This document shows positions 23,559 to 43,830 of a DNA stretch of 64,000 nt, one piece after another. Below the pieces are notes generated by a model. That model was not told where the DNA came from. It ran no database searches and saw only the letters and a list, made by a program, of their open reading frames with translations. Made by a program: the position numbers and the translations under genes. The stretch comes from Candidatus Cacconaster scatequi (GTDB lineage Bacteria > Bacteroidota > Bacteroidia > Bacteroidales > UBA932): NCBI GenBank assembly GCA_018065305.1, contig JAGHTO010000021.1:62001-126000 (forward strand), read 5' to 3'. Numbering within the stretch: position 1 is the first letter of the stretch; each line of letters begins with the position of its first letter.

Positions 23559-23589
23559 TTTGAATTTTGCGTAAAAAGTTGTATATTTG
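23559..23589 (+). promoter_or_regulatory. Bacteroidota promoter of the LRR lipoprotein unit
   Basis: TTTG (23559-23562), exactly 19 nt, then TATATTTG (23582-23589) fits the full consensus of the primary Bacteroidota sigma factor. Confidence 0.75.
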
Positions 23590-23683
23590 AGTATCAGGAA
23601 TATCCTGACCAGCAGCTCGGTAGAGGTTGTGCAGATTGATTGGTGGCACCTGCCTGTTGCTGAACTTTTAAAATATTGGACAT

Positions 23684-23782
23684 ATGAGAGTTTTGTGGGA
23701 TGTCTTCAAGTTCTTTTTCAAGCTCGTGCTTGGAATAGTTTCCTTCATCATTGCAGTGGCATTGAGCTTTATTCCCGAGTAG
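23684..23782 (+). CDS. Small membrane peptide, 32 aa
   Basis: A 32-codon frame (ATG 23684, TAG 23780-23782) encodes MRVLWDVFKFFFKLVLGIVS followed by a hydrophobic stretch ending ALSFIPE. It is a single-span membrane peptide located between a consensus promoter and the LRR lipoprotein, 23 nt before the latter. It may be a genuine small protein or a translated leader. Confidence 0.4.
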   Translation: MRVLWDVFKFFFKLVLGIVSFIIAVALSFIPE

Positions 23783-23805
23783 TAACAAAAATTGAGAGAG
23801 AGAAT

Positions 23806-26025
23806 ATGAAAAGGAAATCTTTGTTTGCAATCATGTCGGTTCTTCTGGTCATGTCAGTATCTTGTGTGAAAGAGGAACCGGTTAAACCAGTAATGTCCGT
23901 AGAAGACAAAATCATTGAACTTCAGAACGTATATGAGCTGGATCATTTCACGGAAAAGACCAACTCTTACAATCTGGTGTTCCACTCCCCTTCCGCAATC
24001 ACGCTTGACATGGAGTATCCGGATGGCATCAAGGACATTGAAGTCCCCAAGTCCATCATCAAGTCGTTCTCAGACGGCAAAAAGGACCTTCATGTATTCT
24101 TCACCGACGGAAGGTCAGCGGTCCTGGGGTATCACTCATGGATAGACGCGTCCCTTGAGAAGGAATCAATATGTTTCTCCGGAGAGGAAAGCATCTCTGT
24201 GGGGTTCACGCTCATTGATTCGAAGCCTTCCGGAGTAGAGATCTCCGCTCCTTATGATGGTTCAAATATGGAACTCACCATTGAAATGAACGAACACGGG
24301 AGCAAAGGGACAATTACGGTCAAGTGCCTCAATTCTCAGGAGGATTTCTCAGAGTCGGTAGACGTGGTCTTCTCAAACTCAGAAAAATCATTGTCTATCC
24401 CTCTTCTGGTCGAGAATCGGAAGTCTGAGAATCCACCCGTACCACAGACAATGTCGTTTGATTTCCGCGAATATGAAAGGATTTTCATGGTGGAGTTGGA
24501 AAACAACGACATGCTCGAAGCGGTGATTCCTGAAGAGAAATCATCATGGATACGCTGCATCATCACATCGGAGCAGATAAAGTCCGCCCAGGGCAAAAGA
24601 TATGTGTATATCCTTATGTCTGAGAACACTGGCAACAGCCCCAGGAGTGCAACTGTGTCAATAACCAGGGAGAACCGTCCGGAATGGGTCTATCTGACCC
24701 TTGACCTGACTCAGATGGGAAGATATCAGAGAGGATCCCTCAGAGCCGGGCTGGAGGCTTTCCACAAGGCTTTGAACGGGAATTCATGGAATGAGGATGA
24801 CAATTGGTGCAGCGAGAAGCCATTATTGGAATGGTATGGCATCAAGGCCTCTCAGACATTCACCAGGTCCGTATTCGGACTCGACGGATTCGCGTACTAC
24901 GGAACCGATGACAACTGGCTGCTGAACCTGGATGCGAATAATATGAGGGGATGCATTCCGGATGAATTCTGGGAGATATGCAGCTGCTTCAGTGTCTTCT
25001 CGATAAGGAATGAATACCTTCCCGGGTCTGTGCTCTCAGACAGGATCTGGCACAAGGGGCTGATATCACTTGACCTGTCGATGAGTTTCATGACTACTCC
25101 CCTTACCTCTTCCATTGCCAAGGCAGAGAACCTTGAGTCACTCTGTCTCCAGTGCTGTAACGTGGGTGGTAGTCTTCCCGGTGAGTTCAACACACTAAGA
25201 CACCTGCAGGCAGTGAACATGAGGGAATGCAACATATCCGGAAATCTTCCGGAAGGACTCGGGAGACTCTCTGAGTTGCGGTCGTTCCAGATTGATCACA
25301 ACATGGAGCTTGGCGGCAGGATTGGAACTGACCTTTACAATCTTACGAATCTCAAGACATTTGACATAGGTTCAACGCGCATTGGCGGGGTTCTTACTTC
25401 TGATGTCAAGAAGCTAACGATGCTGGAGGACTTCAATATCTCCGGATGTGAGTTCGAAGGAACTATTCCTGAGGAGTTCGGCCTTCTTGAAAACCTCTCA
25501 GGCTATGATTTCAACGGAAACTACTTCACATCAATACCGGATTTCATACGGTTCTACGGATATAATTCGAAGTATTTCAGGCAATGGGTTGCATCAACTG
25601 GATTCCCTATCGGTGTGCCGTATTTCCAGCGGAACAAGAAAGATGGCAGACCCGCTGGGTACGTTGTTACCGTCGAGGATGCATTTGAGATTCCGGATAT
25701 CATTGTAGATGGCAAGCCGCTCAAACGTCCGGGTTATTATGTCAATTATGACTTGTGCGGCAAGCTCCCCTTCCCTATGTGGGCCCGGGTGAGGTACGGT
25801 ACATTCTGCTGGACGATAGGACGAGATTCGGAAATGAAATATCCTCAGTATCCTCAGGCGGATGACCTGCAGTATCCTGGCAATGAATACTTCTTTGACG
25901 GCAAGGACTGGAGACATCCAAAGCTCCAGTATCCGGCGCGGGAATATCACTTCGATGGAACTTCATGGATCCATGATCCGAGTTGTCCATGGTATAACGA
26001 ATATATCGATCCGGAAGTTGAATAA
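23806..26025 (+). CDS. Surface lipoprotein with BACON-like and leucine-rich repeats, 739 aa
   Basis: I place the start at ATG 23806 because it gives an SPII signal (MKRKSLFAIMSVLLVMSVSC, lipid on C20). An extracellular part with beta-sandwich BACON-like stretches follows (about 60-300). A leucine-rich-repeat block lies at about 350-570: LESLCLQCCNVGGSLPGEFN, LQAVNMRECNISGNLPEG and similar 23-25-residue units of the GxIPxxxxxLxxLxxLxLxxN type. The C-terminal tail has repeats of LQYPxxEYxFDGxxW. It is probably an exported binding protein on the cell surface. It has a consensus promoter and a terminator of its own. Confidence 0.8.
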   Translation: MKRKSLFAIMSVLLVMSVSCVKEEPVKPVMSVEDKIIELQNVYELDHFTEKTNSYNLVFHSPSAITLDMEYPDGIKDIEVPKSIIKSFSDGKKDLHVFFTDGRSAVLGYHSWIDASLEKESICFSGEESISVGFTLIDSKPSGVEISAPYDGSNMELTIEMNEHGSKGTITVKCLNSQEDFSESVDVVFSNSEKSLSIPLLVENRKSENPPVPQTMSFDFREYERIFMVELENNDMLEAVIPEEKSSWIRCIITSEQIKSAQGKRYVYILMSENTGNSPRSATVSITRENRPEWVYLTLDLTQMGRYQRGSLRAGLEAFHKALNGNSWNEDDNWCSEKPLLEWYGIKASQTFTRSVFGLDGFAYYGTDDNWLLNLDANNMRGCIPDEFWEICSCFSVFSIRNEYLPGSVLSDRIWHKGLISLDLSMSFMTTPLTSSIAKAENLESLCLQCCNVGGSLPGEFNTLRHLQAVNMRECNISGNLPEGLGRLSELRSFQIDHNMELGGRIGTDLYNLTNLKTFDIGSTRIGGVLTSDVKKLTMLEDFNISGCEFEGTIPEEFGLLENLSGYDFNGNYFTSIPDFIRFYGYNSKYFRQWVASTGFPIGVPYFQRNKKDGRPAGYVVTVEDAFEIPDIIVDGKPLKRPGYYVNYDLCGKLPFPMWARVRYGTFCWTIGRDSEMKYPQYPQADDLQYPGNEYFFDGKDWRHPKLQYPAREYHFDGTSWIHDPSCPWYNEYIDPEVE

Positions 26026-26028
26026 CAT

Positions 26029-26061
26029 GGTGGGTGCCAACGATGGCGCCCATCATTTTTT
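26029..26061. terminator. Terminator between the LRR gene and the invertase gene
   Basis: GGTGGGTGCC (26029-26038) pairs with GGCGCCCATC (26045-26054), with wobbles, and is followed by ATTTTTTC on the + strand. It overlaps the invertase stop codon. Confidence 0.75.
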
Positions 26062-26688
26062 CTTGCATCTTCCAATCCAATGCTCTTCATCAACAAACTT
26101 CTCGAGGAACCTCATGAGTGTGTTTCTTGAACAACGGCAACGTTTGCAAATCTTTCGGAAAGAGAGCCCCCGCTTGAGTGCTTTTTCAATGTATTCTTTC
26201 TTCGGATAGAGCTTGTATCCTTCCGGTGTGTTCTCTATTCCCTTCTTTCTGCCCAGAATAACACCTTCGGCTTTCTTACGTGCAAGGGCCTCCTTGGTTC
26301 GCTGTGAGATCAGATTCCTCTCTAGCTCCGCGACAAGTCCGAATGCAAAGGCCAGAACCTTGGATTGTATGTCGTCACCAAGTCGATACCCCTCCTTACA
26401 TGTGATGATAAGAATCCCTTTTTCCATACAGATATTCAAAATGGACATGATCTGCAGAAGAGATCGTCCTAGACGTGACAGCTCTGAACATACAATCACA
26501 TCACCTTTTTCTGCTTTGCGCAAAAGCTTGCCCAGTTTCCTGTTCGTGAACTTGACAGTTCCCGAGACTGTCTCTTCAACCCATGTCTCGATTTCCATCT
26601 CCTGCCTCTGTGCTTGGGTCTTGATTTCGAAACGCTGATTCTCCACTGTCTGTTGGTCAGTGGACACCCGTAGATAACCGTATATCAT
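26053..26688 (-). CDS. Serine site-specific recombinase, Mpi-type DNA invertase
   Basis: The 211-aa protein is a full small serine recombinase. It opens MIYGYLRVSTDQQTVENQRF, with catalytic Ser9 flanked by R7, and has SELSRLGRSLLQIMSILN with the active-site arginines. A long helix region follows (LAFAFGLVAELERNLISQRT, KEALARKKAEGVILGRKKGI) and then a C-terminal HTH (LSFRKICKRCRCSRNTLMRF). The MIYGYxRVSTDxQTVENQRF opening is that of the Bacteroides Mpi invertase family, which flips promoters and gene segments. The gene lies 53 nt from the first of four silent cassettes and about 3.4 kb from the matching site in the expressed lipoprotein gene. It is the expected shuffling enzyme. Confidence 0.92.
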   Translation of the reverse strand: MIYGYLRVSTDQQTVENQRFEIKTQAQRQEMEIETWVEETVSGTVKFTNRKLGKLLRKAEKGDVIVCSELSRLGRSLLQIMSILNICMEKGILIITCKEGYRLGDDIQSKVLAFAFGLVAELERNLISQRTKEALARKKAEGVILGRKKGIENTPEGYKLYPKKEYIEKALKRGLSFRKICKRCRCSRNTLMRFLEKFVDEEHWIGRCKKK

Positions 26689-26740
26689 GATTCATTGCCA
26701 TTGTGTTTTCTACCATTAATATACGAATGGTTCCATTCAA

Positions 26741-27400
26741 ACGACCGTTTCGTTATCAGCAAAGGCCGCTTCTACACAGATAACGGCGTCACAAAACATT
26801 TCAACTAAGAAGAATGTGACTCTCTCATCCATCTCTTTATCATTCGCAAAGAACCAAATATATGCTGGAGGAAGTACGACCGCAACGGTTACGGCCATTT
26901 ATTCAGATGGCAGCACAAAGGATGTCACCAGCCAAAGCTCCTTGTCCGGTCCTTCATATATATCGATAAGCGGATCATCCGTCAGCTCACAGAAAGCGAT
27001 AGGATGCCTGGGACAGAAATCAATAACAGCAACCTATGATGGGAAGACGAATTCCGCTAACCTATCAGTGATATCAGATTTCAAATCAATCTCACTTGAA
27101 TGCGAACTCTACTGTTTTGACAACTATCGTTCTGCATCCGGGAATGGAAATTCAATATCACTGAGTGTTCCGATGAATGATGGTGGCGAGGTGCGAACCA
27201 GCATCTCTGGAACTATCACTACTTACAACAATGATAGTTACAACATCATTGGAAACTCCCTGATAAAGGTCGTTTTTGAAAACGATAATATATCTTCAAC
27301 TGGCGTAAGTACAGATTGGATGATGCCGGGAGATAATCTGACAATGAGAATCTCCTATCTTGGAGAGGAAGTGAAATCATTTGGCGTTTCCTTCAACTAG
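26741..27400 (+). CDS. Silent C-terminal cassette 1 (Ig-like), no start codon of its own
   Basis: The frame opens with the site ACGACCGTT (26741-26749), preceded by GGTTC and CAA as in the expressed gene. It reads TTVSLSAKAASTQITASQNI in the phase used at the host site. It continues for 219 codons as a bacterial Ig-like domain (IYAGGSTTATVTAIYSDGST) and a second beta domain. A GTG at 26816 gives a 194-aa frame, but there is no promoter. The segment aligns with host residues from T223 (TTIKIEAQNGSIKTSQNINV). It is therefore read as an unexpressed alternative C-terminus. Confidence 0.75.
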   Translation, partial: TTVSLSAKAASTQITASQNISTKKNVTLSSISLSFAKNQIYAGGSTTATVTAIYSDGSTKDVTSQSSLSGPSYISISGSSVSSQKAIGCLGQKSITATYDGKTNSANLSVISDFKSISLECELYCFDNYRSASGNGNSISLSVPMNDGGEVRTSISGTITTYNNDSYNIIGNSLIKVVFENDNISSTGVSTDWMMPGDNLTMRISYLGEEVKSFGVSFN

Positions 27401-27405
27401 AATAT

Positions 27406-27437
27406 TGTGCGCTCTGAGTAATCAGGGCGCACATTTT
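27406..27437 (+). terminator. Hairpin closing cassette 1
   Basis: TGTGCGCTCTGA and TCAGGGCGCACA form a 12-bp stem (one wobble) with a GTAA loop, followed by TTTT. It ends directly before the site of cassette 2. Confidence 0.8.
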
Positions 27438-27860
27438 ATGACCGTTTATTTGAACGCAAAATATTCAGGTATTGATGAGGCATTAATTTCCATTGAAACT
27501 ACTCTTGATGAGATTAAATTCAAGGGCCATTATACTTGTAATTTCTACGATGATGACAGGGGTATGGGATATGATGTACCCTGTGTAGAAGAGTCTCTTT
27601 ATTTTAATGCGATTCGTGGTGGAGAAATCATCGCAGAGAAAGTACAATTCAAGGTGGAATCTTATAATCTCTACGGCGGGCTGAATGGAATTTATGGCCC
27701 ATACACTACGATGTATATAGACGAATACGACTATCGTTATAATTATGGCCCAAACGATCCTGCTGACCCTAATAACAGAGATTATATCCTTATTTCTTTT
27801 GAAGGCACTGATTACAGATTCAAGTATTCGGAAATGACAATAGAGCGAACTATCCTCTAA
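27438..27860 (+). CDS. Silent C-terminal cassette 2
   Basis: The site reads ATGACCGTT (27438-27446), so this cassette happens to have an ATG. The 140-codon frame begins MTVYLNAKYSGIDEALISIE, matching the host and the other cassettes in phase and pattern (TVxIxA). It then diverges into its own beta-rich sequence rich in Tyr and Asp (YDYRYNYGPNDPADPNNRDY). No promoter is visible. The stop codon lies 1 nt before the site of cassette 3, with no hairpin between. The longer frame starting at 27381 reads through the cassette 1 stop region and hairpin and is rejected. Confidence 0.7.
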   Translation: MTVYLNAKYSGIDEALISIETTLDEIKFKGHYTCNFYDDDRGMGYDVPCVEESLYFNAIRGGEIIAEKVQFKVESYNLYGGLNGIYGPYTTMYIDEYDYRYNYGPNDPADPNNRDYILISFEGTDYRFKYSEMTIERTIL

Positions 27861-27861
27861 T

Positions 27862-28515
27862 ACGACCGTTAATATTGAAGCAAAATCTGATGATATTTCA
27901 AGCTCTCTAAATGTTACTACTGAACAGTCAGAATACATGATTGGAATCACCCTTTCATTTAGAGAAAATAGTATGATGGTGACTCATTCAACAAGATATA
28001 TTGTCGAAGCGATGTATTCTTCAGGAAGGACGGAGATAATAACATCTAAAGCTACTGTGACAAGTACGGCTCCATTGACATTCTCAGGAACACAAATTTC
28101 AGCCAATAAGGTTTGGGGCATATTAGGAGATTTGCCTGTTACAGCATCCTATCAAGGATTCACTGACACTCAAATATTGGAAGTGACATCAGATATTGTC
28201 GACAACCAGTTTGTTCTTTCCGTTACTGAGTATATTAACGACGATGGATATCAATACCAATATTCTCACACTGAGAAACCAGGCTCCAATTGTTGTCCAG
28301 ATGATGAGGATCCGTCTATTAGTTTGTGGGGTTACGCGATGCTTGCTGATGGTAGTAAGATGGATTATAATTCCCCATACCTTGATTATTCATGTACGTC
28401 AATTCCATGTGACTGTGGGCAAGATAATCACGGCATAACCCCGGACACCTATCACGATATCTATATCTTAAAATATCTTGGAACTGAAATTGCAAAGTGG
28501 ATATTTAGATATTAG
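27862..28515 (+). CDS. Silent C-terminal cassette 3 (Ig-like), no start codon of its own
   Basis: The frame opens at ACGACCGTT (27862-27870) and reads TTVNIEAKSDDISSSLNVTT for a total of 217 codons. At the DNA level the first 20 bases differ from the host site segment in only two positions. A weak Ig-like domain follows (VEAMYSSGRTEIITSKATV) and then a domain rich in Tyr, Asp and Cys (PGSNCCPDDEDPSISLWGYA). An ATG at 27937 exists, but there is no promoter. A terminator hairpin follows at 28532-28566. Confidence 0.75.
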   Translation, partial: TTVNIEAKSDDISSSLNVTTEQSEYMIGITLSFRENSMMVTHSTRYIVEAMYSSGRTEIITSKATVTSTAPLTFSGTQISANKVWGILGDLPVTASYQGFTDTQILEVTSDIVDNQFVLSVTEYINDDGYQYQYSHTEKPGSNCCPDDEDPSISLWGYAMLADGSKMDYNSPYLDYSCTSIPCDCGQDNHGITPDTYHDIYILKYLGTEIAKWIFRY

Positions 28516-28531
28516 TCCTTAAGAATCGAAT

Positions 28532-28566
28532 AGAGCTCTATTGTTAATCAATGGGGCTCTTCTTTT
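28532..28566 (+). terminator. Hairpin closing cassette 3
   Basis: AGAGCTCTATTG (28532-28543) pairs with CAATGGGGCTCT (28549-28560) with wobbles, followed by TCTTTT. Confidence 0.75.
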
Positions 28567-28588
28567 ATTGAGTCATTGAATTACTGAA

Positions 28589-29032
28589 TTGACCGTTAAA
28601 ATTGATGCAGTTTACAACGGTATCGGAGCGACATGTACTATCAATACTTCTGCTCCTGTTTCTGAAGGAATAGATTACACAATTGACATTATTCGACATG
28701 CAGCTTGCGGATATACTATTACAGTCTATCCTGATGATTCTATGAGTAACTTCCTTTGCACGGCTGGATGTACAAACAGTAATTACAGCACAACATATAA
28801 GGCGGAAGGAAAGACTACAGCAAAGATGACTCCAGATAAGTCATATTATATCACTGTTACAAGAGTCTTCGGCAGTACAACAGCAACTGTATTGAACTAT
28901 AGTGGTACGAAAATATTTGACACTTCTGGCTCATCTTCAGGCTCTATTACATATGGACCTATTGATGGAAGCAGGCTTCTATTTGAATCCGGTGGTGCAT
29001 ACAAACTTTCATTAACTCTTACGGCAAAATAA
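28589..29032 (+). CDS. Silent C-terminal cassette 4
   Basis: The site TTGACCGTT (28589-28597) is followed by AAAATTGATGC, nearly the same as the host site. The frame reads LTVKIDAVYNGIGATCTINT and runs 147 codons. The body is beta-rich with a Cys pair and Ser/Thr-rich strands (GSTTATVLNYSGTKIFDTSG). It is the cassette nearest to the expressed gene and lies tail to tail with it across a shared hairpin. No promoter precedes it. Confidence 0.75.
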   Translation: MTVKIDAVYNGIGATCTINTSAPVSEGIDYTIDIIRHAACGYTITVYPDDSMSNFLCTAGCTNSNYSTTYKAEGKTTAKMTPDKSYYITVTRVFGSTTATVLNYSGTKIFDTSGSSSGSITYGPIDGSRLLFESGGAYKLSLTLTAK

Positions 29033-29068
29033 TATTAAGGGGCGGCAAAGATGTCGCCCCTTAATATT
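29031..29068. terminator. Bidirectional terminator between cassette 4 and the variable lipoprotein gene
   Basis: A perfect 14-bp stem AATATTAAGGGGCG/CGCCCCTTAATATT with a 10-nt loop has AT-rich flanks on both sides. It can serve both converging reading frames and marks the end of the fimbrial operon. Confidence 0.85.
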
Positions 29069-29113
29069 ATTGGGATCTCAAAAAACTATGAGACTCTTAT
29101 CAATGAATTTGTA

Positions 29114-30739
29114 TCAACGGTAATGAGGGTAGTATCTGCACATATCACCGAAGTCATCGGATTCTGTGATGTATCCCCATACTTTTTTTGAGGTACCATT
29201 TTGAAGCTTAAGGGTAAGTGTTACATATGATGCGTGGCTACCAGTATATACTGAACCATCCGTGTACGGATATTGGGAGTTATATCTTGTGGTCCGATTC
29301 ATATTGTTAATCAATCTTGTTACAGATGATTCTGAGACAGAGACACTCTTCTCGACGTTATTTTCATAGTATTTGAATCGTGCAGAATTATTAACTAATT
29401 CTATTGGGCATACAGCTCCGTTCTCCTCCATTTCTTCACCAACGACATAGTTGAAATAATAGCACTCACCATCATATGAACCAGACGTTGTGATTCCATA
29501 ACTTCTTGAGTAAGTTCCACAAGCATCAAGTGTACGATATGTATATCCGTCTGTTGAGTAGTAAAGACCGTCCAAAATGGTTGGAGTTGGATCCGGATCG
29601 GGGTCCGGAGTTGGGGTTGGCGTAGTTGGTATGTACTCTATCAAATATTGGCGACCATCATCGAGAGTAACTTTAACGAGCAAATTGAATGTATTACCCA
29701 TTCTCTGATAATCATCATCTCTAACAGATAGTGTCACATCTATTTCCATTTCGCCTTGTCCTTCATACAAACTGCAACTATAGCTGTGGTCTTGGTCGAA
29801 ATGATATGACTGTCTGCTTCCACTAGAGTTATAAGTATAGCCCCAATCGATAACTTCTGCATCAAATTCACGACCAGGTTCATAATACCATCCGTATTTC
29901 GAATCTTGAACTTGAAGCTTATATGTGATGTAGAGATCACCTCCACCTTGGTTGATATGCCTGTTATCCATACTTTCAAATGTAAGATAAAAGACAGGCT
30001 CAGAAGGACTGGTTACATTGATATTTTGGCTTGTCTTGATACTCCCATTTTGTGCTTCAATTTTAATGGTCGTTTGTTCTGAACCAGTGTATTTGTAGTA
30101 AATTGTCTTGGTTTGGTTGGTCGAAAACGTCACAGAAGCCGTTGAAGACAGGCTTGTACTAGATGTTCCAACCAAAAACGAACCGTTATTGGAACTTATT
30201 GTTGCAGTACAGCTGAAGTTGCTGTTAAGTGTCGCAGTCTTCACTTCCCCACTAGTAATAGACGTTGTCGCATTACTCCATGATAATGCCCTGTCATCAG
30301 AAACTGTTACAGGAACATCCTGCGTTGCAACTACGGTGCTGTTCAAGTTTGCAGAAACGGTTATCGTTCCGCTGCCAGTTGCCTTTGCACTGATATCGCA
30401 TGACTGGTTAACTGTTCCCGAACCGTCGAACTTCTTCGAATCAGAACTGGAGGCAGACCATGAATAGACAACCCCGGTAGTTACATCAACCCAATTCGAG
30501 CCGCTCTTCTTCTTAAGCTGAGCGGAAACCCTTTTGCTGGATGCCTTGGTGAGATTTGCAAGACTCAGTTGAACAGTGGAAGGACTGCTTTTAGTCGGGC
30601 TCTGCAGATCCACGATTTCAATGCGGTAATCGCCCTCCTTGCCCTCGTTTTCATCATGTTCAGGAGTAATCAGATCCTGCTTGTTGCAGGATGCCAGGCA
30701 AAGTATTGCCGATAAAAGAAATACAATTTTAGTTTTCAT
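29114..30739 (-). CDS. Variable surface lipoprotein, expression locus of the cassette system
   Basis: The 541-aa protein has an SPII signal (MKTKIVFLLSAILCLASC, lipid on C18). A fixed Ig-like region runs to about residue 222, and from T223 the segment TTIKIEAQNGSIKTSQNINV matches the openings of all four silent cassettes. The present C-terminal part includes YLTFESMDNRHINQGGGDLY, a PTPTPTPDPDPDPTPT linker and a Tyr-rich final domain. It is the last gene of the fimbrial operon, 18 nt after the large adhesin. I infer a cell-surface or fimbria-associated protein whose C-terminal 319 residues can be exchanged by DNA inversion. Confidence 0.85.
   Translation of the reverse strand: MKTKIVFLLSAILCLASCNKQDLITPEHDENEGKEGDYRIEIVDLQSPTKSSPSTVQLSLANLTKASSKRVSAQLKKKSGSNWVDVTTGVVYSWSASSSDSKKFDGSGTVNQSCDISAKATGSGTITVSANLNSTVVATQDVPVTVSDDRALSWSNATTSITSGEVKTATLNSNFSCTATISSNNGSFLVGTSSTSLSSTASVTFSTNQTKTIYYKYTGSEQTTIKIEAQNGSIKTSQNINVTSPSEPVFYLTFESMDNRHINQGGGDLYITYKLQVQDSKYGWYYEPGREFDAEVIDWGYTYNSSGSRQSYHFDQDHSYSCSLYEGQGEMEIDVTLSVRDDDYQRMGNTFNLLVKVTLDDGRQYLIEYIPTTPTPTPDPDPDPTPTILDGLYYSTDGYTYRTLDACGTYSRSYGITTSGSYDGECYYFNYVVGEEMEENGAVCPIELVNNSARFKYYENNVEKSVSVSESSVTRLINNMNRTTRYNSQYPYTDGSVYTGSHASYVTLTLKLQNGTSKKVWGYITESDDFGDMCRYYPHYR
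30054..30073 (-). repeat. Recombination site in the expressed gene
   Basis: On the minus strand the segment reads ACGACCATTAAAATTGAAGC, starting at codon 223. It matches + strand sites at 26741 (ACGACCGTT), 27438 (ATGACCGTT), 27862 (ACGACCGTT) and 28589 (TTGACCGTT). In cassette 1 the centre is AAACG-AC-CGTTT, a dyad around a 2-bp non-palindromic core, as expected for a serine invertase. The host site is inverted relative to all four cassettes. Confidence 0.75.
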
Positions 30740-30757: not shown

Positions 30758-33700
30758 TTAATTGATTACAATGTCATATTCTGCCTTGCCTTGAGTGACG
30801 GAGCAGCTTGCCGAAGCAGTGCCGTTGCTGACAGAGAGCGTTGCAGATCTTTGTGAAGTGGCAGTATTCTCAGTCACGTACATCTTTCCGCTGGAATAAG
30901 TCAACCAGCTCTGGTTAGACGTCGGCGTAACCGAATCGCTGACCTTGCTTCCTGTTCCATACGTGGTCCGGTAGTCATATCCTCCATCAGAAGTCGAATA
31001 TGAGGTTCCGCTGTTGTCGCGGTACCACTCGCTGCCGGTATCATCTGACAGTGTTTCCGTGCCGGAATCCGTCCACGTCTCAGTATGGCTCTTTGATTCT
31101 TCGACATACAGCGTTGAACCGGAATCGAATGAATCCGTTCTGTATTCGGTGTAGTTGCAGTTCTGAGAGGCCGTCCTGGTGTAAGACCTGGATGCTGAAC
31201 GTGTATAATCGCGATAATAGTGCTGCGTATAGCTCTGATGATAGTTATGCGTTATCGTTCGCCTCTGGTCATTCTTCGACCTCTCGTAGTGATAAGCGGT
31301 CACAGTGTTGGACTGATTTGTCGATGCTGATCCAGGAGTCCATGATGTCACAGACAGGGATACTGCATAATCGTATTTGTCCGTAGAAGTCTGATAGGTA
31401 CTCCACGAACCGTAAGTATCAGAATCCGTCACCTTGGTGCCGTAATCGGTACTCTTGAGATATTCACTGCCATAACTCTTTGTTCCATAGGTTGTAGAGC
31501 CGTAGCTCTTCGAGCCATAAGAAACCGAACCGGTTCTGGTGTGGTTCTTCGTTGACTTCGTGCCGGTGTAGCGGTTATTGGTTACACTTGCACTAGCCTC
31601 CTTGTATGAGGAAGTGCTGCTTGAATTAACCACCTTGACAGTAACCTTATCGGTCCTCTCATTGGTCGTCATATTCGAGTGGCTGATCGTGCAGGTGTTC
31701 GAACTTGAGCTCCCGTTGAGAGTGCCGCTAAGTGAGAACGCACTGTTCCCGTTGGCAGACAGACTTACCTGAGCCTTGTCGTAAACCGTATGGACAGTTC
31801 CATCGGAGCTGCCTGAAGAATACTTGTTATATGCATTATGATAAGCGTAGTACGTTACAGTTGCGCTTCCGCCAGCTGCACTGATACCACTGCCGATAGA
31901 AGCATATGCGGAGTATCCTGAAGGGTTGTAGTTGCTGTCAGTAATCTTGTTCTCACCCTGAGAGAACTGAGCGCTCTTGTTGCTTGCAGAGATACCTCCG
32001 TTTGAATATGAAGCTGTCACAGTGTACGTGCCGGAAGAAACGACACTTGTACCAAGGCTCTTCACAGTTATCGTCTTGCCGCTCACTGATGCAGGATAAG
32101 AGCTGTTCAGAGTCGTTCTTTCTACCTTCAGTGTTGCTGTCGCATAGTTCTCGACTTTCTTTCCTGATACCCAGTTCTGGGTTACGGAACCTCCGCTTAC
32201 GGTGATCGTTCCGCCACCGGCACCGATGCTGGTTGTGCTAAGCGATATGTCGGATATCGTGTAGTCGATTACATAATCCTCAAGAGGCTCAAGAGTAATC
32301 GTCACGGTTGCCGTTGCTCCGGTGTCTCCGGATGTCTTCACGGTAAGAGTGACCGTCTTGGACTCATAAGTGGTATTCTTGTTGGTGACAGTAATTTTGT
32401 TACCGGAAACAGATACGCTGGCATATGTAGTGCTTGAGAGAGTAGCCGAGAACGAGTCATAATTGCCGCTTGCCGTCACTGTTCCGCTACCGGCCGAGCC
32501 GATGGTCATCGAGCTCTTGTCAAGCTTGATGGTCTCTGGTTTTGCGACAAGGTGGATGGAGGCCGAAGCCTTCTTCTTCATGATGTTTGTCTCTGCGGAC
32601 AGAGTGATGTCCTTAGCGGTATACGAAGCAGTGGTGTTCTTGACGGAAATGCTGTTGCCATCCTTTGTGATGGTAACGCCTGTCGGGGAATTGAGGGTAT
32701 AACCCTGAGGATACGTACCGCTTGCCGTGAAGGTAACGGTACTTCCATAGTCTATGGTCTTTGACGTAGGACTCAGAGATATGCTCTCCTGGAGTGATTT
32801 CGCCGTGATGGAGACCTGCGCAAAGCGCTTGGCATCTTCGGTTGTTACCGTGAGCGTTCCCTGACTGTCCGTTCCGGAGATGTTGTTGTTGGTCACCCTG
32901 AGGGTCGTATTGTTAATCTTCTCGGCGGACAGACCCGTTCCGGAAATGACTTTCGTCCAGTTCTGGTCTATCGGATCTCCGGTAACGGTGATATCCTTGT
33001 ATTCTCCCCATTCCAGGGTAAGAGATGACACGTTCAGGCTTATCTTCATTCCGGCGATGCTGTCGAAGCTCAGCGAATAGACGCATTTCTTCCCCTCCTG
33101 CCATTTGTCTCCGGCAATGGATGCGGAGAGAGTGTGAGTCTTTCCCTCGCTCTCAATCACAACCTCGATAGTAGCTCCCGAAGGGACGGTCTGAGGTATG
33201 AGCATCATTGTCGATGCTCCGGAAGTAAGTGTCTTCGAAGTCCCTTCTGTAACCGAAATGTTTGAGCTTACAGAGAAATTCCCTGCCGAAGACAGAGATC
33301 CCCATCCGCTTCCGCAGGTGTATTTGCCCTTGGAATAGACTCCCTTGAGGGTGATACTCTTTATTGTTCCGTTCACAGTCTCTGTTCCGGTCTTGAAGGT
33401 AACAGCTGAAAGGCAGTGGCCGAATGATACGGACAGGTTGCTGAGCTTCCCGTTGTACTCCGGAGAAGACCCCACAAGGAGGTCGTTCTGGGAAGATACG
33501 GCACTTGGCACTGTATAGGTGAATGCCAGAGGACCGGAAAGAGAAGACGCGACGGAAACGCCTGATGCCCCATAAGGTGCATAGGCGTAAAACCGCAGGT
33601 TCTTGTCGGAAAGATTTGTGTTGAATGCATGAGTGGTCTGCCATGTCGGACTACTGTACTGGACCTTCTCATCAAACATGTAGTTCGGCTTTGATGATCC

Positions 33701-34015
33701 GCTCCAAGTGTCATACATATATCCGAACAGGGAGAAATCCCCGTATGTTGTAAGGTTCTCCACAGGTGCTGCCTTCGTTATGGGCTTGTCGATTGACTCT
33801 CCGTTGGTGCGTATGAAATAAGCTCCGCCGAATCCCTTTGTCCCGATGGAATCGACAGTCACCTCCAGGCATCCGGGATCCGAAAGCATCTCAGCGCTGA
33901 AAGTCAGAATCCCTTCTGACCTTATTGCCGGAGGCTCAGGAGTCACGATGTCCTTGGTACAGGCTGCCGCCACAAGCAGACAGCCGTACAGTATGATTCG
34001 TCGTATCGTTGTCAT
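30758..34015 (-). CDS. Large fimbrillin-like adhesin with Ig-like repeats, 1085 aa
   Basis: The product has an SPII signal (lipid on C19 in CLLVAAACTKD) and an N-terminal fimbrillin-family domain (about 30-330: YGDFSLFGYMYDTWSGSSKP, LRFYAYAPYG, LLVGSSPEYNG). Three or more Ig-like repeats follow (KTIDYGSTVTFTASGTYPQG; KSSMTIGSAGSGTVTASGNY). Then comes an unusual Ser/Tyr/Thr/Gly-rich tract (about 830-1015) and a final BACON-like unit (SNQSWLTYSSGKMYVTEN). Position near the end of the fimbrial operon and size fit a tip adhesin. It overlaps the upstream fimbrillin gene by 4 nt. Confidence 0.8.
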   Translation of the reverse strand: MTTIRRIILYGCLLVAAACTKDIVTPEPPAIRSEGILTFSAEMLSDPGCLEVTVDSIGTKGFGGAYFIRTNGESIDKPITKAAPVENLTTYGDFSLFGYMYDTWSGSSKPNYMFDEKVQYSSPTWQTTHAFNTNLSDKNLRFYAYAPYGASGVSVASSLSGPLAFTYTVPSAVSSQNDLLVGSSPEYNGKLSNLSVSFGHCLSAVTFKTGTETVNGTIKSITLKGVYSKGKYTCGSGWGSLSSAGNFSVSSNISVTEGTSKTLTSGASTMMLIPQTVPSGATIEVVIESEGKTHTLSASIAGDKWQEGKKCVYSLSFDSIAGMKISLNVSSLTLEWGEYKDITVTGDPIDQNWTKVISGTGLSAEKINNTTLRVTNNNISGTDSQGTLTVTTEDAKRFAQVSITAKSLQESISLSPTSKTIDYGSTVTFTASGTYPQGYTLNSPTGVTITKDGNSISVKNTTASYTAKDITLSAETNIMKKKASASIHLVAKPETIKLDKSSMTIGSAGSGTVTASGNYDSFSATLSSTTYASVSVSGNKITVTNKNTTYESKTVTLTVKTSGDTGATATVTITLEPLEDYVIDYTISDISLSTTSIGAGGGTITVSGGSVTQNWVSGKKVENYATATLKVERTTLNSSYPASVSGKTITVKSLGTSVVSSGTYTVTASYSNGGISASNKSAQFSQGENKITDSNYNPSGYSAYASIGSGISAAGGSATVTYYAYHNAYNKYSSGSSDGTVHTVYDKAQVSLSANGNSAFSLSGTLNGSSSSNTCTISHSNMTTNERTDKVTVKVVNSSSTSSYKEASASVTNNRYTGTKSTKNHTRTGSVSYGSKSYGSTTYGTKSYGSEYLKSTDYGTKVTDSDTYGSWSTYQTSTDKYDYAVSLSVTSWTPGSASTNQSNTVTAYHYERSKNDQRRTITHNYHQSYTQHYYRDYTRSASRSYTRTASQNCNYTEYRTDSFDSGSTLYVEESKSHTETWTDSGTETLSDDTGSEWYRDNSGTSYSTSDGGYDYRTTYGTGSKVSDSVTPTSNQSWLTYSSGKMYVTENTATSQRSATLSVSNGTASASCSVTQGKAEYDIVIN

Positions 34016-34980
34016 AATATGATTTCCTTATTTGCTCCCGTATCCCAGAGTGCGACAGAAGGAGTTATGTTTATGCCTTTCATCGTAATGTCTATACCGT
34101 ATGTGTATTTCTTGCCGGCCTCCCAACTGCAAGGAGAAGAAGGCGTATAGTCATATGACATTGCCGTATTGACAAGGTTCCCGGCGGTATCCGTTCCGTT
34201 ATGTAGTGTATAGCTGATGACAAATCCCACTTCTGTCTGTTCCGGCAGCAGTATGCCGTCACCAAGAGTCGTAACCGTCTTCGTAAGGTTTGTCGTCGTC
34301 AGGCCCGGAACGGCTACTGTCTTCGAACTGCCAAGAGAACTCCAAAAGAATTCAAGGCTGCCTGAAGAACGCTGAGCCAGCACTGTCCCTGAGTATTTGG
34401 CGGACTTGAGGGTGATGCTGTTGATGGTGATTCCCCTGTTTGTCGTGGAGTTATATGCATCTGAAGACTTTGCAGTAAATACAAGGAGTGCCTGCGGGTG
34501 CTTGAAGTCAATCACCACGTCGGTGTTTGCAGCAATCGATGCTGCGCACCCGATAAGTATATCCTCCTGGACGGATGAGTTGTCAGGCATGGCGAACTGC
34601 ACAGATGCTGTCGCATCAGGTGTTCCCCATGTGACATCCGTTATGGATGATGAGCCCTGTGAGATAGCCAGGAAATCAAGATTCCCGGACAGCGGCCAGC
34701 TCTTGTCGGCCATCCACGCTCCGGTAGAGTAAGTGAACCTTGTTGACTTGAAATGGTTCTGGCTTGATGCCGCATGCCATGATGAAACGATCATATCCCT
34801 TGTCGTAGGGAAAACACCAGTTGTAATGGCCGCCTTTGTGGTAAGTCCAATGTCCACACCTGTTGTGATGCGGATAAGCTGCGCGGGACATTCCTGTCCA
34901 GTCTTTACTTCCTCCTTGCTGCAAGACGTAAGCAGCATCATACCGAGGAAAATGAGTGTGATGAAATTTTTCATAATCAA
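34012..34980 (-). CDS. Fimbrillin family lipoprotein, 322 aa
   Basis: The SPII signal is MIMKNFITLIFLGMMLLTSC. The body has family hallmarks seen also in its two upstream neighbours: WPLSGNLDFLAISQG, VQEDILIGCAAS, VVIDFKHPQALLVFTAKSS, GILLPEQTEVGFVISY and WEAGKKYTYGIDI. Fimbrillins (FimA/Mfa1 type) are lipoproteins processed at the surface and joined by donor-strand exchange. This is probably a minor or tip-proximal subunit. It overlaps neighbours on both sides by 4 nt. Confidence 0.85.
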   Translation of the reverse strand: MIMKNFITLIFLGMMLLTSCSKEEVKTGQECPAQLIRITTGVDIGLTTKAAITTGVFPTTRDMIVSSWHAASSQNHFKSTRFTYSTGAWMADKSWPLSGNLDFLAISQGSSSITDVTWGTPDATASVQFAMPDNSSVQEDILIGCAASIAANTDVVIDFKHPQALLVFTAKSSDAYNSTTNRGITINSITLKSAKYSGTVLAQRSSGSLEFFWSSLGSSKTVAVPGLTTTNLTKTVTTLGDGILLPEQTEVGFVISYTLHNGTDTAGNLVNTAMSYDYTPSSPCSWEAGKKYTYGIDITMKGINITPSVALWDTGANKEIIL

Positions 34981-35924
34981 TCTATTATTATCTGTTTATT
35001 GTCTTCGTTCCATTCATGGACTCGGGCCTGGACTGAGAGGTTCTTGTGAACTGTCATCGTGTATACGGTACGCGTCCCCGCAAACCACGGATCCGGATTT
35101 GCCTTCTGGGTGAAACTTGTCTTCCTTGTGTAGTTGTTCCAGGATTCCTCTGATGGTTCCTTCTGGGTGTAGTATACGGTGATGTCGCAGGCCGGCTGCT
35201 CAGGAAGAAGGATGTCAATGGTTTTCTGAGTTCCGTCAAGCACAAGGTTCCTTGAGAGAGGTAGTGTGTGACTTTTCCTGAAGTATCCGTGAAAGTCCCA
35301 GTCGGCTGAGAGATAAATGCCGTTGTCGATGCGTAATTTCCCGCCGAGATAGGCGTTGTTTATGACTATGCTGTCTATCCTGGTAGTCAGAGACTCATAC
35401 TCTGACAGTCTGAACTGTAACCAGGCCTGTGAATGAGAAAAGTTCATACCCACTCCCCTGTCCGAAACACCTTGTGAAGATGCTGCTGAATACATTATCT
35501 CACTTTCCAGGCAGCAGCCGTCGGAAACTGCCACTTCCACGCCTCTGGAGACATTCTGAGGATACCATGACATGTTGATACCCATAAGGCTTGAAGGCGC
35601 CGCTATGGCAAGGAAATCAAGCTTTCCGCCCATCGGCCAGTAGATGACCGGATCGGCCGTCCACTTGTCTCCCAAATGACGGAATGCCTCTCCGGTGAAG
35701 TAGTTTGCACTAGACTCCCCTGCCGTTTCATTATTGAAGTATGAACTGAGGAATATCGTATATTCTTCGGGGATGGATGTCCCTTCTACTGCCGCCTTGG
35801 TAATGGCACATTGAGGTGCAACGGTAAGCGCGTACGGTTCCTGCGTGGAATCGTATGAAAGCTTGCTGCAGGAGACCGCCCCCACAGCAAGCGTGATAAT
35901 GATTATAAAAATTTTTAACCGCAT
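34977..35924 (-). CDS. Fimbrillin family lipoprotein, 315 aa
   Basis: I chose ATG 35924 (MRLKIFIIIITLAVGAVSC, lipid on C19) rather than ATG 35945, which would precede the signal by seven residues. The pattern repeats that of the neighbours: YWPMGGKLDFLAIAAPS, SEIMYSAASSQ, NFSHSQAWLQFRLSEY, ILLPEQPACDITVYYTQ. It is a second minor fimbrillin, downstream of the larger 355-aa one. The intergenic hairpin at 35952-35978 may set its expression lower than the upstream gene. Confidence 0.85.
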   Translation of the reverse strand: MRLKIFIIIITLAVGAVSCSKLSYDSTQEPYALTVAPQCAITKAAVEGTSIPEEYTIFLSSYFNNETAGESSANYFTGEAFRHLGDKWTADPVIYWPMGGKLDFLAIAAPSSLMGINMSWYPQNVSRGVEVAVSDGCCLESEIMYSAASSQGVSDRGVGMNFSHSQAWLQFRLSEYESLTTRIDSIVINNAYLGGKLRIDNGIYLSADWDFHGYFRKSHTLPLSRNLVLDGTQKTIDILLPEQPACDITVYYTQKEPSEESWNNYTRKTSFTQKANPDPWFAGTRTVYTMTVHKNLSVQARVHEWNEDNKQIIID

Positions 35925-35951
35925 CAGACCTGAAAGAAAATGCATTGGATC

Positions 35952-35978
35952 CCCGGCCGGGAGTCGAACCCCGCCGGG
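35952..35978 (-). other. GC-rich hairpin in the fimbrial operon, resembles a tRNA T-arm
   Basis: On the minus strand CCCGGCGGG and CCC-G-GCCGGG pair around GTTCGACT. The segment GGTTCGACTCCC followed by GATCCA looks like a tRNA 3' end, but no further tRNA is present. It may be an mRNA processing or attenuation hairpin between the 355-aa and 315-aa fimbrillins. Confidence 0.45.
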
Positions 35979-35995
35979 AAAAAGATGAGAGAGAA

Positions 35996-37063
35996 TTATA
36001 TGATCTCCGAAGGAGTAAGGTCAGTGACTGTTCCATCAACATATTCCTTGACGGTAGGAGCAACAGTAAGCTCGTTCACGTTGAACTGAATCTCGTAAAC
36101 GTACTTGTTTCCCTGGAGCCAGTTGTCGGTACCGAGTGTATAACGGTACTCAAGCTTGTTAGGCTGACCGGCAAGGACATATTTGATCACGAAACTGGTC
36201 TTTGCCTGCTCCGGAAGAAGCATATCCATGTAGTTGATTTCGTTGTCTATGGCATTCTCCAATGAGAAGTCAGCGCTCTGACTGCCGTAGATTGAATAGT
36301 CGTCATCGAATACGACATCCTTGCTCTGGCTCTTGCGGAAGTTCCACTCGGCTTTAGCGTCACCGTTGTTGTTCTCGATAGTGAGCTCGCCGTCATTGTA
36401 GATGTTCTCGATAACGATCTCCTCGATGGCGATCTTGTCCTTCATGTCAGCGGAGGCCACCTTGATCTGGAATTCAAGCCATGCCTGAGCGTGCTTGAAC
36501 TGCATAGGAACGGCGTCAGCACCGGTAGTTGAAGCACGGCTTGCAACTGAACAGTAGACGATGTCATCCTGAGTACGGTCTTCGAGCACGGTGAGAACCA
36601 CGCTTTCAGAAGCATTCTTCTCGTTCCATGCCACGTCCTTAGCGTCGAATGGCTGCATAGCAGAATAGGCAAGGAAATCCAGTGTGCCTGCAAGAGGCCA
36701 GTAGATCTTCGGATCGTGATGCCACTTTCCGTCGTCACCCTTCGCATAGGTGTAGTCCACAAAGTAGTTGCCCTCACTTCCGGTCTGAGGATGGAGGAAT
36801 GCAGAGAGCTTCATCTCCCTTTCGACCTTCACATCGGAAGGAGCTCCGTCTTCTCCGGCATGAAGCTCGGCGATTGCTGTGTCAAAGAATGTTTCGCCGG
36901 TTACATAACCCTTGGTTGTCTTTGTCGAGGTGTTGACCGCGATCTCATTGTTCTCAAAACCGGGCTGAACATTGCTCATACCGGGTCCTTCCTCCTTGTT
37001 GCAGGATGCGAAGAGGGTTGTTGCCGCCGCCATTGCAGCGGCCAGATAAATGAACTTTTTCAT
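35996..37063 (-). CDS. Fimbrillin family lipoprotein, 355 aa
   Basis: The SPII signal is MKKFIYLAAAMAAATTLFASC (lipid on C21). The body has IYWPLAGTLDFLAYSAMQ, DDIVYCSVASRAS, MQFKHAQAWLEFQIKV, MLLPEQAKTSFVIKYV and WLQGNKYVYEIQFNV. These are the same landmarks as in the two minor fimbrillins downstream, so the three are paralogues. An 88-nt gap separates it from the DUF5119 gene. It is likely a structural subunit of a fimbria. Confidence 0.87.
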   Translation of the reverse strand: MKKFIYLAAAMAAATTLFASCNKEEGPGMSNVQPGFENNEIAVNTSTKTTKGYVTGETFFDTAIAELHAGEDGAPSDVKVEREMKLSAFLHPQTGSEGNYFVDYTYAKGDDGKWHHDPKIYWPLAGTLDFLAYSAMQPFDAKDVAWNEKNASESVVLTVLEDRTQDDIVYCSVASRASTTGADAVPMQFKHAQAWLEFQIKVASADMKDKIAIEEIVIENIYNDGELTIENNNGDAKAEWNFRKSQSKDVVFDDDYSIYGSQSADFSLENAIDNEINYMDMLLPEQAKTSFVIKYVLAGQPNKLEYRYTLGTDNWLQGNKYVYEIQFNVNELTVAPTVKEYVDGTVTDLTPSEII

Positions 37064-37151: not shown

Positions 37152-38045
37152 CTATTCTATATCTACGAATTCATGGTGTTCGTCCCATTTGTCAGCTGAA
37201 GGGTCAAGCCCTCCCTGTATCATGGGACTGAGTTCTGTCGGGAAATCGACAGTGATGAGGTGTTCGCGGTTGGACACATCAAGGATCTGGGAGGTGACAT
37301 CGAACTCCATCGAATGAACCTTCCTGTCCAGAGCCTCGATATCAACACGGATACGTATCGTGCCTGTGTCGGACATTCCGAAGGTGCAGAAAGGAATTTC
37401 GAAAACGCCTTCATCCTGGACGGCACGTCCTTCCGCTCTGATGGCGCAGTTTCCCGACGGCCTGTTGTCCTTGAGGTAAATCTCCTGTGTCTGGTTGAAG
37501 ACATAGGCGGTAATACCGGCTGAGTATTCAACTCCCTTGACCCCTGTAACCTTTATCTTCCAAGAGTCGCACACCGACTTCATCGGTATCGTCAGCTCGA
37601 ACGGAGGATCTGCTTCAGACAGGAACGGTATGACTGTTCCGGCCATCACACCGGCATACATGTGGTCAGGAGCAGCAATCACTTTAACGGGAGAAGACTG
37701 AATTGTCTTGGTCTGGGCCGTAAGCAGATTGAAATCCTTCGTAAAGGTGAGTTCCGTACGGCTCGACCCCATTGAGACGGCGACGATGTCGTACGCACCC
37801 GGCGTGAAGGAATACAGGTATCCGCCCTCAGGACCCATATAGGCCTCATCGATCTTCTTTCCCGATGCCGGATCGTAGAAGATCACCTGAATGAGCTCTG
37901 GCTGTTTGCCCTTGCAGTACAGGACATCACTGTCTATGCTGAAGCATATGTGATATCTTGACACTTCATCATATATCGGGTCTCTGGTACAAGAAAGAAA
38001 CACCAGGGACATGGCAAGCAGCGGAATCAGCAATCTACTTTTCAT
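37152..38045 (-). CDS. DUF5119 fimbrial-associated lipoprotein, 297 aa
   Basis: The SPII signal is MKSRLLIPLLAMSLVFLSC. The body begins with ISRYHICF-type strands (DEVSRYHICFSIDSDVLYCK) and a pattern (PGAYDIVAVSMGSSRTELTF) of the DUF5119 family, which accompanies fimbrillins in Bacteroidales and resembles the FimB/Mfa2 anchor group. It overlaps the DUF3575 protein gene by 11 nt. A role as an anchor or accessory subunit is inferred from family and context. Confidence 0.8.
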   Translation of the reverse strand: MKSRLLIPLLAMSLVFLSCTRDPIYDEVSRYHICFSIDSDVLYCKGKQPELIQVIFYDPASGKKIDEAYMGPEGGYLYSFTPGAYDIVAVSMGSSRTELTFTKDFNLLTAQTKTIQSSPVKVIAAPDHMYAGVMAGTVIPFLSEADPPFELTIPMKSVCDSWKIKVTGVKGVEYSAGITAYVFNQTQEIYLKDNRPSGNCAIRAEGRAVQDEGVFEIPFCTFGMSDTGTIRIRVDIEALDRKVHSMEFDVTSQILDVSNREHLITVDFPTELSPMIQGGLDPSADKWDEHHEFVDIE

Positions 38046-39348
38046 AGGAGCGGTCTGTTTTGGTGATTGGTATTACAACGGACACACCCACCCTGAGTGG
38101 GACAGGAACGAAACGGCCGTATTTCGGCCCCTCGCCGATGAGATGCCCGCCTGCAACCCTCACGTCATAATTCCTGTAAGGGTTGTATGCGCAGCCCGCA
38201 CCGATGCTAAGCTCCATGTGTACGCCGCCCTTTCCAAGAGGCAGCGCATACATGTAATCGGCTCCCAAGGCATAGAATTCACCCTGTTGTCCGTTGCCGT
38301 TCCTTTCGATGTCATAGTATCCGCCTGTCGCGATTATCCCTATGGAATGACCTCTTAGCCGATACTTCCTGTCTGCTGAAACATTGTGGATGGAGCCAAG
38401 CCATATCCTTCCCTCAAGGGAGAATGCCAGAGCCTGCATACAGTTCATCTGCGGCGTAGAAATCTCATTCATCCATCTTCTCATGGCCCACGGATAATAG
38501 AAGTCGGCCCCAAGGGAGAACCTGTTGGAGACAGGAACCTCTATGCTGACATTCATAAGTGGCAGAAGAAGATTACTTCGAACGGCGAAGACGCTCTGAC
38601 GCAGAAGTGAATCCTTTCTGAAGGCAGGTCTTTTCACGACGGGAACGATCTTGTCCATTACACTGTGATAAACCGTGTCCTTCTGTACGATGACATCCTT
38701 GTGGTAGATGACAAGAGTATCCCTGACACCCCGTCTGTCTCCCACTTCGGAAGAGATGACCATTACGCTTCCGTCAGCGCAGCGAAGATGACCGAATGCA
38801 TATTCGTTCATCCAGTTCCAGGCGGTCCCTTCGGCAATAGCCTGAAGACGCGCCTTGCACTGCTCTGAAGCCGTGTCGCTGTCGGAGTAGATAACACCAG
38901 ACTCAGCAATGGCGGCGAGTGCCTCCATCTTCCACGGCTGCGAACATTCCGAGATGATCTGCACAAGACCTTTCCAGTTCTCTCCAGCCGTATTGACTTT
39001 GAGCTGTGACGGACTCAGGGTGGTATTCTCCCTGAGGAATTCCAGGATATTCTGGGCCCTGTCACGGGCAAGACGGTCATTGAGAGACTTCCGCCCTTCC
39101 GGTGATGCCGTAGCCGTGATGTTCACGGAATGGATCACGAATGAAGGATCGGAATTGAGGTATCTGATTGCAGAAAGGAACCCGTCCATCACGGGGCCGT
39201 TCCCGTTGAACTCCCTTTCAAGCTTGGCGACCCCGCGTCGGAAGAAAAGTTCTATGGACAAGGTGTCCGTTCTTCCCTCCGAAGCAAACGCTGATGCTCC
39301 GGAGATAAAGAACAGGATAACTATCAATATTGTCCTTATGGCTTTCAT
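38035..39348 (-). CDS. OmpA-like/DUF3575 outer-membrane protein, 437 aa
   Basis: A signal peptide (MKAIRTILIVILFFISGASA) precedes an OmpA-like N-terminal region (VNITATASPEGRKSLNDRLA, DRAQNILEFLREN). A DUF3575 beta-barrel half begins near VFAVRSNLLLPLMNVSIEVP and continues with FSLGADFYYPWAMRRWMNEI. Proteins of this kind sit in the outer membrane and are encoded with FimA/Mfa-type fimbriae. The gene lies 20 nt after the 348-aa fimbrillin. Confidence 0.82.
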   Translation of the reverse strand: MKAIRTILIVILFFISGASAFASEGRTDTLSIELFFRRGVAKLEREFNGNGPVMDGFLSAIRYLNSDPSFVIHSVNITATASPEGRKSLNDRLARDRAQNILEFLRENTTLSPSQLKVNTAGENWKGLVQIISECSQPWKMEALAAIAESGVIYSDSDTASEQCKARLQAIAEGTAWNWMNEYAFGHLRCADGSVMVISSEVGDRRGVRDTLVIYHKDVIVQKDTVYHSVMDKIVPVVKRPAFRKDSLLRQSVFAVRSNLLLPLMNVSIEVPVSNRFSLGADFYYPWAMRRWMNEISTPQMNCMQALAFSLEGRIWLGSIHNVSADRKYRLRGHSIGIIATGGYYDIERNGNGQQGEFYALGADYMYALPLGKGGVHMELSIGAGCAYNPYRNYDVRVAGGHLIGEGPKYGRFVPVPLRVGVSVVIPITKTDRSYEK

Positions 39349-39368
39349 AGATTCCTTCCTGTTTCAGA

Positions 39369-40415: not shown

Positions 40416-40444
40416 GATTTTTGAAATTTTTGATAGTAAGAGTA

Positions 40445-43257: not shown

Positions 43258-43275
43258 AGCAGTCTGGCAGAGATT

Positions 43276-43830
43276 CTAGAAGATGTATACAAGGGACAGG
43301 AAGACGTCGTCGGGCATCAGGAACCACTTGCTCCCGCTGTCCACGACCTTGCCGCATGTCGGACAGGCATAAACGACGTACTTTGTGTAACCGCCCCAAC
43401 CTCCTATTCCCATGTCAAGGTTCAGGTGCTTGTGGAGCATAAGGGTATATCCGGCTGAAATGCCGAGTCCGTAAGCGTCTCCCTGTTCGGTCTGACGCTT
43501 GAAGATTCCACCCTGGTTGTATTCCTCCACCTGTCCCTTTGCGCCTATCCACCATCCGGAATAAACATTCCAGGGCCACCAGCGGCCATAGACATAAGCT
43601 GTGCGCTGCTTGTTCTGCAGACGCTGCTCTTCACCTCCGAAGACCCATGGATTGTATCTGAATCCCACGCCAACACTCGTATGCCTTCCTGCGGCAACGG
43701 AAGCGTCGGCATTGATGGTTCCTAGATTTGCCCACTGGGCCACGTTTGTTCCGACAGACCATCTCTGGGCGGAAGCCGCCGAGCTGAATGCGGAGACTGC
43801 GATGATTATCAGTAGTAATTTCTTTAACAT
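43276..43830 (-). CDS. DUF3575 outer-membrane protein, 184 aa
   Basis: A signal peptide (MLKKLLLIIIAVSAFSSAAS) is followed by the DUF3575 pattern: WSVGTNVAQWANLGTINADA, VGVGFRYNPWVFGG, WPWNVYSGWWIGAKGQVEEY and the CPTCGK pair late in the chain. It is the first gene of the fimbrial operon. DUF3575 proteins are small outer-membrane barrels that accompany FimA/Mfa systems. Confidence 0.85.
   Translation of the reverse strand: MLKKLLLIIIAVSAFSSAASAQRWSVGTNVAQWANLGTINADASVAAGRHTSVGVGFRYNPWVFGGEEQRLQNKQRTAYVYGRWWPWNVYSGWWIGAKGQVEEYNQGGIFKRQTEQGDAYGLGISAGYTLMLHKHLNLDMGIGGWGGYTKYVVYACPTCGKVVDSGSKWFLMPDDVFLSLVYIF

Follow-up and report, generated by a model that had tools for sequence, protein, structure and literature searches.

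A putative C-terminal shufflon with an Mpi-family serine invertase on the terminal gene of a type V-like pilus operon in Candidatus Cacconaster scatequi

Organization of the locus

The 64 kb stretch analyzed here (the window; positions 62,001 to 126,000 of contig JAGHTO010000021.1) belongs to the metagenome-assembled genome (MAG) of Candidatus Cacconaster scatequi, a 1.9 Mb Bacteroidales genome that shares its genus with Candidatus Cacconaster merdequi and whose kin are horse-gut Bacteroidales. It carries an Mpi-family serine invertase gene on the minus strand, followed by four cassettes on the plus strand and then by a convergent lipoprotein gene on the minus strand (the host gene), which is the final gene of a type V-like pilus operon and to which the cassettes are oriented oppositely. 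These elements very probably constitute a local shufflon, in which the invertase swaps the C-terminal ~318 residues of the pilus-operon lipoprotein. The closest relative carrying the same locus is Candidatus Cacconaster merdequi E5_MB2_33 (G030). Lengths below are in nucleotides (nt) or amino acids (aa).

26053-26688, minus strand: Mpi-family serine DNA invertase, 211 aa (Pfam PF00239, Resolvase; NCBIfam NF009949)
26742-26760, plus strand: putative crossover site 1 (c1), an AAACG-AC-CGTTT dyad; outer boundary of the proposed invertible region
26744-27400, plus strand: silent cassette c1, 218 codons to the stop, opening without a start codon
27406-27433, plus strand: terminator-like hairpin 3′ of c1, abutting site 2; conserved in G030
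27439-27457, plus strand: putative crossover site 2 (c2), left flank near-identical to that of the G_a site of G030
27441-27860, plus strand: silent cassette c2, 139 codons to the stop
27863-27881, plus strand: putative crossover site 3 (c3), a match to the site pattern
27865-28515, plus strand: silent cassette c3, 216 codons to the stop, opening without a start codon
28532-28560, plus strand: terminator-like hairpin 3′ of c3
28590-28608, plus strand: putative crossover site 4 (c4), a match to the site pattern
28592-29032, plus strand: silent cassette c4, 146 codons to the stop
29028-29071, no strand: 20-nt inverted repeat lying between c4 and the host gene, whose ends converge here; a possible bidirectional terminator
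29114-30739, minus strand: expressed host gene for a 541-aa lipoprotein with lipobox LASC; 30069-30739 is its fixed part, 29114-30068 its 3′ part that would be exchanged
30054-30072, minus strand: putative host-gene crossover site, AC core at 30069-30070, inverted relative to the cassette sites

The four plus-strand frames and the corresponding site in the minus-strand host gene had been pointed out by a sequence-only reading of this DNA, and all of them are present. The five sites share one codon phase, x-ACC-RTT, which encodes T-V/I-x-I/L-x-A. When both species are considered, all nine 3′ ends open with T-V/I-x-I/L/V/M-x-A, can be aligned for ~25 residues and then diverge; in its N-terminal half, c3 shares 42% identity with the c1-type cassette that G030 has.

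It is barely credible that the cassettes are independently expressed small genes. Such a view could point to the open frames of c2 to c4 and to the codons placed exactly at two of the sites, a TTG that is the only possible start of c4 and an ATG in c2, which has in addition two upstream TTG codons inside the end of the previous cassette and its hairpin. Against it, the stretch from the last in-frame stop to the site holds no start codon in c1 or c3, and no signal peptide is found at the opening of any of c1 to c4. Upstream of each cassette, the plus strand also lacks a Bacteroidales-type promoter, which bears out the earlier description of the frames as promoterless. Moreover, a homologue of c1 forms the C-terminus of the host protein in G030 and, fused to another protein, is found in a further genome (G006).

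Crossover sites

The pattern YGACCRTTNNNNTNNNNGC has five matches in the window, all of them at the five junctions, where 0.11 would be expected and no shuffled sequence reaches five. The whole 1.9 Mb genome has eight matches, five of which are at this locus, and locus L033 has three (0.03 expected). The pattern was drawn up once the sites had been seen, with those of both species fitted, so these counts describe clustering and are no blind test.

Sites of serine recombinases have two inverted arms that flank a non-palindromic core of 2 nt. The dyad reading of the present site gives AAACG-AC-CGTTT for c1 and CATTTTATCG-AC-CGTTAAAATG for the G030 cassette G_c, which suggests such arms on either side of a non-palindromic AC core, with the exact cut presumably falling within these two nucleotides. 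The AAACG-NN-CGTTT form with a 2-nt core gains support from a relative (G026), where a 33-nt inverted repeat beside an Mpi-family gene has the centre AAACG-TT-CGTTT.

The invertase and its relatives

The enzyme had been called a serine invertase of the Mpi type, and the family model agrees: it scores 302.9 bits against NF009949 (master DNA invertase Mpi family), for which the curated cut-off is 272. PF00239 is matched over its full length (E = 2.9e-34), indicating an intact serine-recombinase catalytic domain; the N-terminal catalytic-serine motif is retained and the YLRVST and RLGR motifs align with γδ resolvase. It is the sole match within its own genome at E ≤ 0.001. An orthologue with 83% identity adjoins the same array in G030.

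We also weighed the possibility that the invertase controls something else, namely a promoter, the cassettes being old gene fragments exchanged over evolutionary time only. Promoter inversion is what Mpi and its family are known for (PMC4747536, PMC5903667), and one relative of the enzyme lies beside an apparent invertible promoter. In that genome (G026), an Mpi-family invertase is located directly upstream of a DUF3575-DUF5119-fimbrillin operon (L040, G026:C14, 4895-10650), and the two halves of the 33-nt inverted repeat (9824-9856 and 9974-10006, 117 nt apart) are found between the invertase and the pilus operon, which makes the repeat a candidate promoter inverton for that operon. In the window species, approximate patterns revealed no excess of sites elsewhere in the genome, as a master role in global promoter inversion would lead one to look for, and genome-wide searches with AAACG-NN-CGTTT or TTTTANYGACCRTTAAAA gave counts near control. 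The cassette frames are also intact in two species, and the invertase and array have been kept together in both. On these grounds, exclusive promoter control is highly unlikely, and the invertase probably acts on the five local sites.

Other Mpi-family loci (L034-L043, 47-61% identical) revealed no similar array in screens for GACCRTT and for 11-mers that recur, although the 11-mer screen is insensitive and misses the window's own sites. At two of these loci the invertase lies near a contig end (L034, G036:C39, 265-2810; L038, G047:C22, 239-2533), in each case adjoining a GmrSD-type (PF03235) gene; as this is a type IV restriction family, phase-variable defence is possible there. On the other side of the window's invertase there is a leucine-rich-repeat lipoprotein gene (23587-26025) with a terminator-like hairpin at its end (26027-26056).

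Comparison with related genomes

The sequence-only reading had proposed to look for hybrid joins in related genomes, and one is found in G030. Its fixed N-terminal part, 65% identical to that of the window, reads through the site, without loss of frame, into a homologue (about 84% identical) of c1, which in the window is silent and inverted. The c1-type cassette has different left contexts in the two species, and the other three cassettes of G030 are unlike any cassette of the window. Flank comparisons place the break at the core: the left flanks of the two host sites are identical at 26/30 positions and the right flanks at 12/30, while a second, independent break is seen between window c2 and G030 G_a (28/30 on the left, 14/30 on the right). 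When the segment bounded by the host and c1 sites is inverted in silico, two opposite-strand matches to G030 become one collinear match of 2,353 nt. The order in G030 (one plus-strand cassette by the invertase, two minus-strand cassettes, c1 expressed) corresponds to a single full-length inversion of a window-like order. The two species hold alternative arrangements of one locus. Each of the four possible in-silico inversions yields an intact hybrid open reading frame (441, 362, 439 and 369 aa). Together, the G030 join and the in-silico inversion support the claim that the C-terminal part is exchanged for a cassette; its length, given earlier as 319 residues, is corrected to about 318 aa, since a crossover in the AC core makes residues 224/225-541 the exchanged part.

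Conversion systems such as pilS/pilE likewise have silent, promoterless copies of a 3′ end, and one could imagine that the host gene acquires copies of the cassettes through gene conversion or homologous recombination. Such copying would have little homology to drive it, because the cassettes and the expressed 3′ end have almost no sequence in common beyond about 20-25 nt at the site. Furthermore, G030 holds its expressed cassette only once at the locus, a serine invertase adjoins the array in both species, and the inverted orientation of the sites fits inversion. Conversion is accordingly very improbable, and cassette exchange by the serine invertase is the explanation that we prefer.

In a third species (G364), the contig breaks off inside the host site, 9 nt beyond its core, which is consistent with branching assembly paths. 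The fixed part was found at only two loci in the genome contig collection, and 399 family genomes give two strong matches beyond the window's own (G030 and G364), so the system looks rare. Viral contigs contain no match to the fixed part and thus give no indication of a phage origin.

The host lipoprotein and its split domain

The AlphaFold2 model of the fixed part (about residues 31-247) consists of two immunoglobulin-like (Ig-like) domains, predicted with moderate confidence, and its matches in PDB are of a generic kind, namely Ig-like domains from S-layer proteins, intimin and filamin. In this model, the site-encoded residues 223-225 begin a strand within the second Ig-like domain. A crossover within the domain implies that each cassette supplies closing strands, and we therefore propose that each cassette would complete the split domain 2 and then present its own variable module. 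No ligand fold can be named for the variable parts from the poor structure predictions obtained for them.

The pilus operon

Upstream of the host gene, the window contains the remaining genes of the operon.

30758-34015, minus strand: 1085-aa lipoprotein, whose G006 homologue has a c1-like domain as its own C-terminus
34012-37063, minus strand: three fimbrillin-like genes (Mfa_like_1; PF13149 in all three)
37152-43830, minus strand: DUF5119, DUF3575, FimA/Mfa2-like fimbrillin (39369-40415), lipoprotein, OmpA-like and DUF3575 genes

Several FimA/Mfa-family genes thus stand in one operon (PF13149 three times, PF06321/PF08842), as in type V pilus operons, and the operon is collinear in the window species, G030 and G364. 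The homologue of the 1085-aa lipoprotein in G006 (L111, G006:C112:18001-32000, about 6172-8013) ends directly in a c1-like domain (37% identical), which supports a role of such domains as exposed terminal modules of pilus proteins; no shufflon was seen at L111. Given the host gene's place as the last in a type V-like pilus operon, the swap most likely alters the outermost (tip or accessory) surface module, and hence would change binding specificity and antigenicity. A TraO-like gene and a Rep3_N initiator-like gene (43968-45737) adjoin the pilus operon, hinting at a plasmid-like neighbour or one resembling an integrative and conjugative element.

Discussion

The locus combines one expressed gene, constant in its N-terminal part, with several silent 3′ cassettes that are in frame and bear the repeated site, and with an adjoining site-specific recombinase, an arrangement that recurs in G030. 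In the mechanism that we propose, the Mpi-family invertase would cut two sites, that of the host gene and that of one of the four cassettes, within the AC core they share, and the DNA between them would be inverted. The first ~223 codons, which are fixed and comprise the start, the lipoprotein signal, Ig-like domain 1 and the larger part of domain 2, would then be joined in frame to another 3′ cassette, which would bring the closing β-strands of domain 2 followed by its own variable module and stop, while the former 3′ end would be stored silent in the array. Switching of this kind may be ongoing within the population.

Several observations weigh against this interpretation. The sites are short and their left arms variable (4-9 of 12 dyad positions), and some cassettes may therefore be poorly used; c4 (TTG) and c2 (ATG) could in principle start on their own sites. 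The two arrangements stem from different species, the contig end in G364 could have another cause, and neither cassettes nor a full-length invertase were found in G364. The variable parts are predicted with low confidence, with predicted local distance difference test (pLDDT) values mostly below 50. The host protein matches no pilin family, and no Pfam or NCBIfam family above its cut-off, so that the role suggested for it at the tip rests on operon position.

Antigenic variation had been put forward as the outcome of the exchange. Given the pilus-operon context, variation in adhesin or pilus-tip specificity is at least as likely, and the benefit may lie in adhesin specificity or in immune or phage evasion, with the variable modules plausibly acting as ligand-binding parts.

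Comparable systems are known. In the R64/IncI1 shufflon, pilV has a constant N-terminal part, silent C-terminal cassettes, short repeated sites and an adjacent recombinase, and the target is a pilus adhesin. Min of p15B and Gin/Cin of phages Mu and P1 are serine invertases that swap the 3′ ends of a tail-fibre gene, and in Mycoplasma pulmonis vsa and Campylobacter fetus sap, silent variable ends are moved by inversion to a fixed expression end. Tsr0667 of Bacteroides fragilis is a tyrosine recombinase. The window resembles R64 (pilV, Rci) in having one expressed gene, silent C-terminal cassettes, short repeated sites and an adjacent recombinase. Rci, however, is a tyrosine recombinase acting on sfx sites for a plasmid-borne type IV pilus, whereas the window has an Mpi-family serine recombinase, unrelated sites and a chromosomal type V-like pilus operon; membership of the R64 (Rci/sfx) type is ruled out by the recombinase being a serine enzyme, although the two work alike. 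With Min, Gin and Cin the window shares a serine invertase exchanging 3′ ends, but those act on phage or plasmid tail fibres, while here the target is a pilus and the enzyme falls in the Bacteroidales Mpi group by family model. The vsa and sap systems differ from it in enzymes, sites and proteins. Mpi of B. fragilis belongs to the same NCBIfam equivalog family; unlike it, the only sites found for the window's enzyme are those of the local intragenic array.

PMC5903667 cites the R64 shufflon and, from Sandmeier et al. 1990, Min, in which the invertible segments are clustered and overlap. Within the Bacteroidales, Tsr0667 carries out shufflon-type multiple inversion at SusC/SusD clusters (PMC4747536), which is similar in being multiple inversion of surface proteins, but the window differs in enzyme class and target. 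Type V pilus tip proteins of Bacteroides are diversified by a diversity-generating retroelement (PMC12632263), a mutagenic route unlike cassette exchange by inversion. No description of a type V pilus shufflon was found in the searchable literature, which was incomplete, so an earlier description is possible. What appears to be new is the probable use of an Mpi-type enzyme, a kind hitherto reported to invert promoters, in a local shufflon that acts on the C-terminus encoded by the final gene of a type V-like pilus operon. Tentatively, one may imagine that a lineage of Mpi-family invertases left promoter switching and became specialized in shuffling the C-terminus of the terminal adhesin of type V pili, with the crossover lying in an Ig fold such that every cassette brings the closing strands, and with an AC core that may insulate the array from the relative's TT-type promoter-switch core.

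The locus provides a testable serine-invertase site with a 2-nt core, and its nine cassettes in two species form a defined set for asking what type V pili bind. If the proposed exchange is true, combinatorial swapping of whole C-terminal modules would be a further route to pilus tip diversity in the Bacteroidales, besides promoter switching and diversity-generating retroelements, and would be a counterpart of the R64 PilV shufflon in which neither the pilus class nor the recombinase is related.

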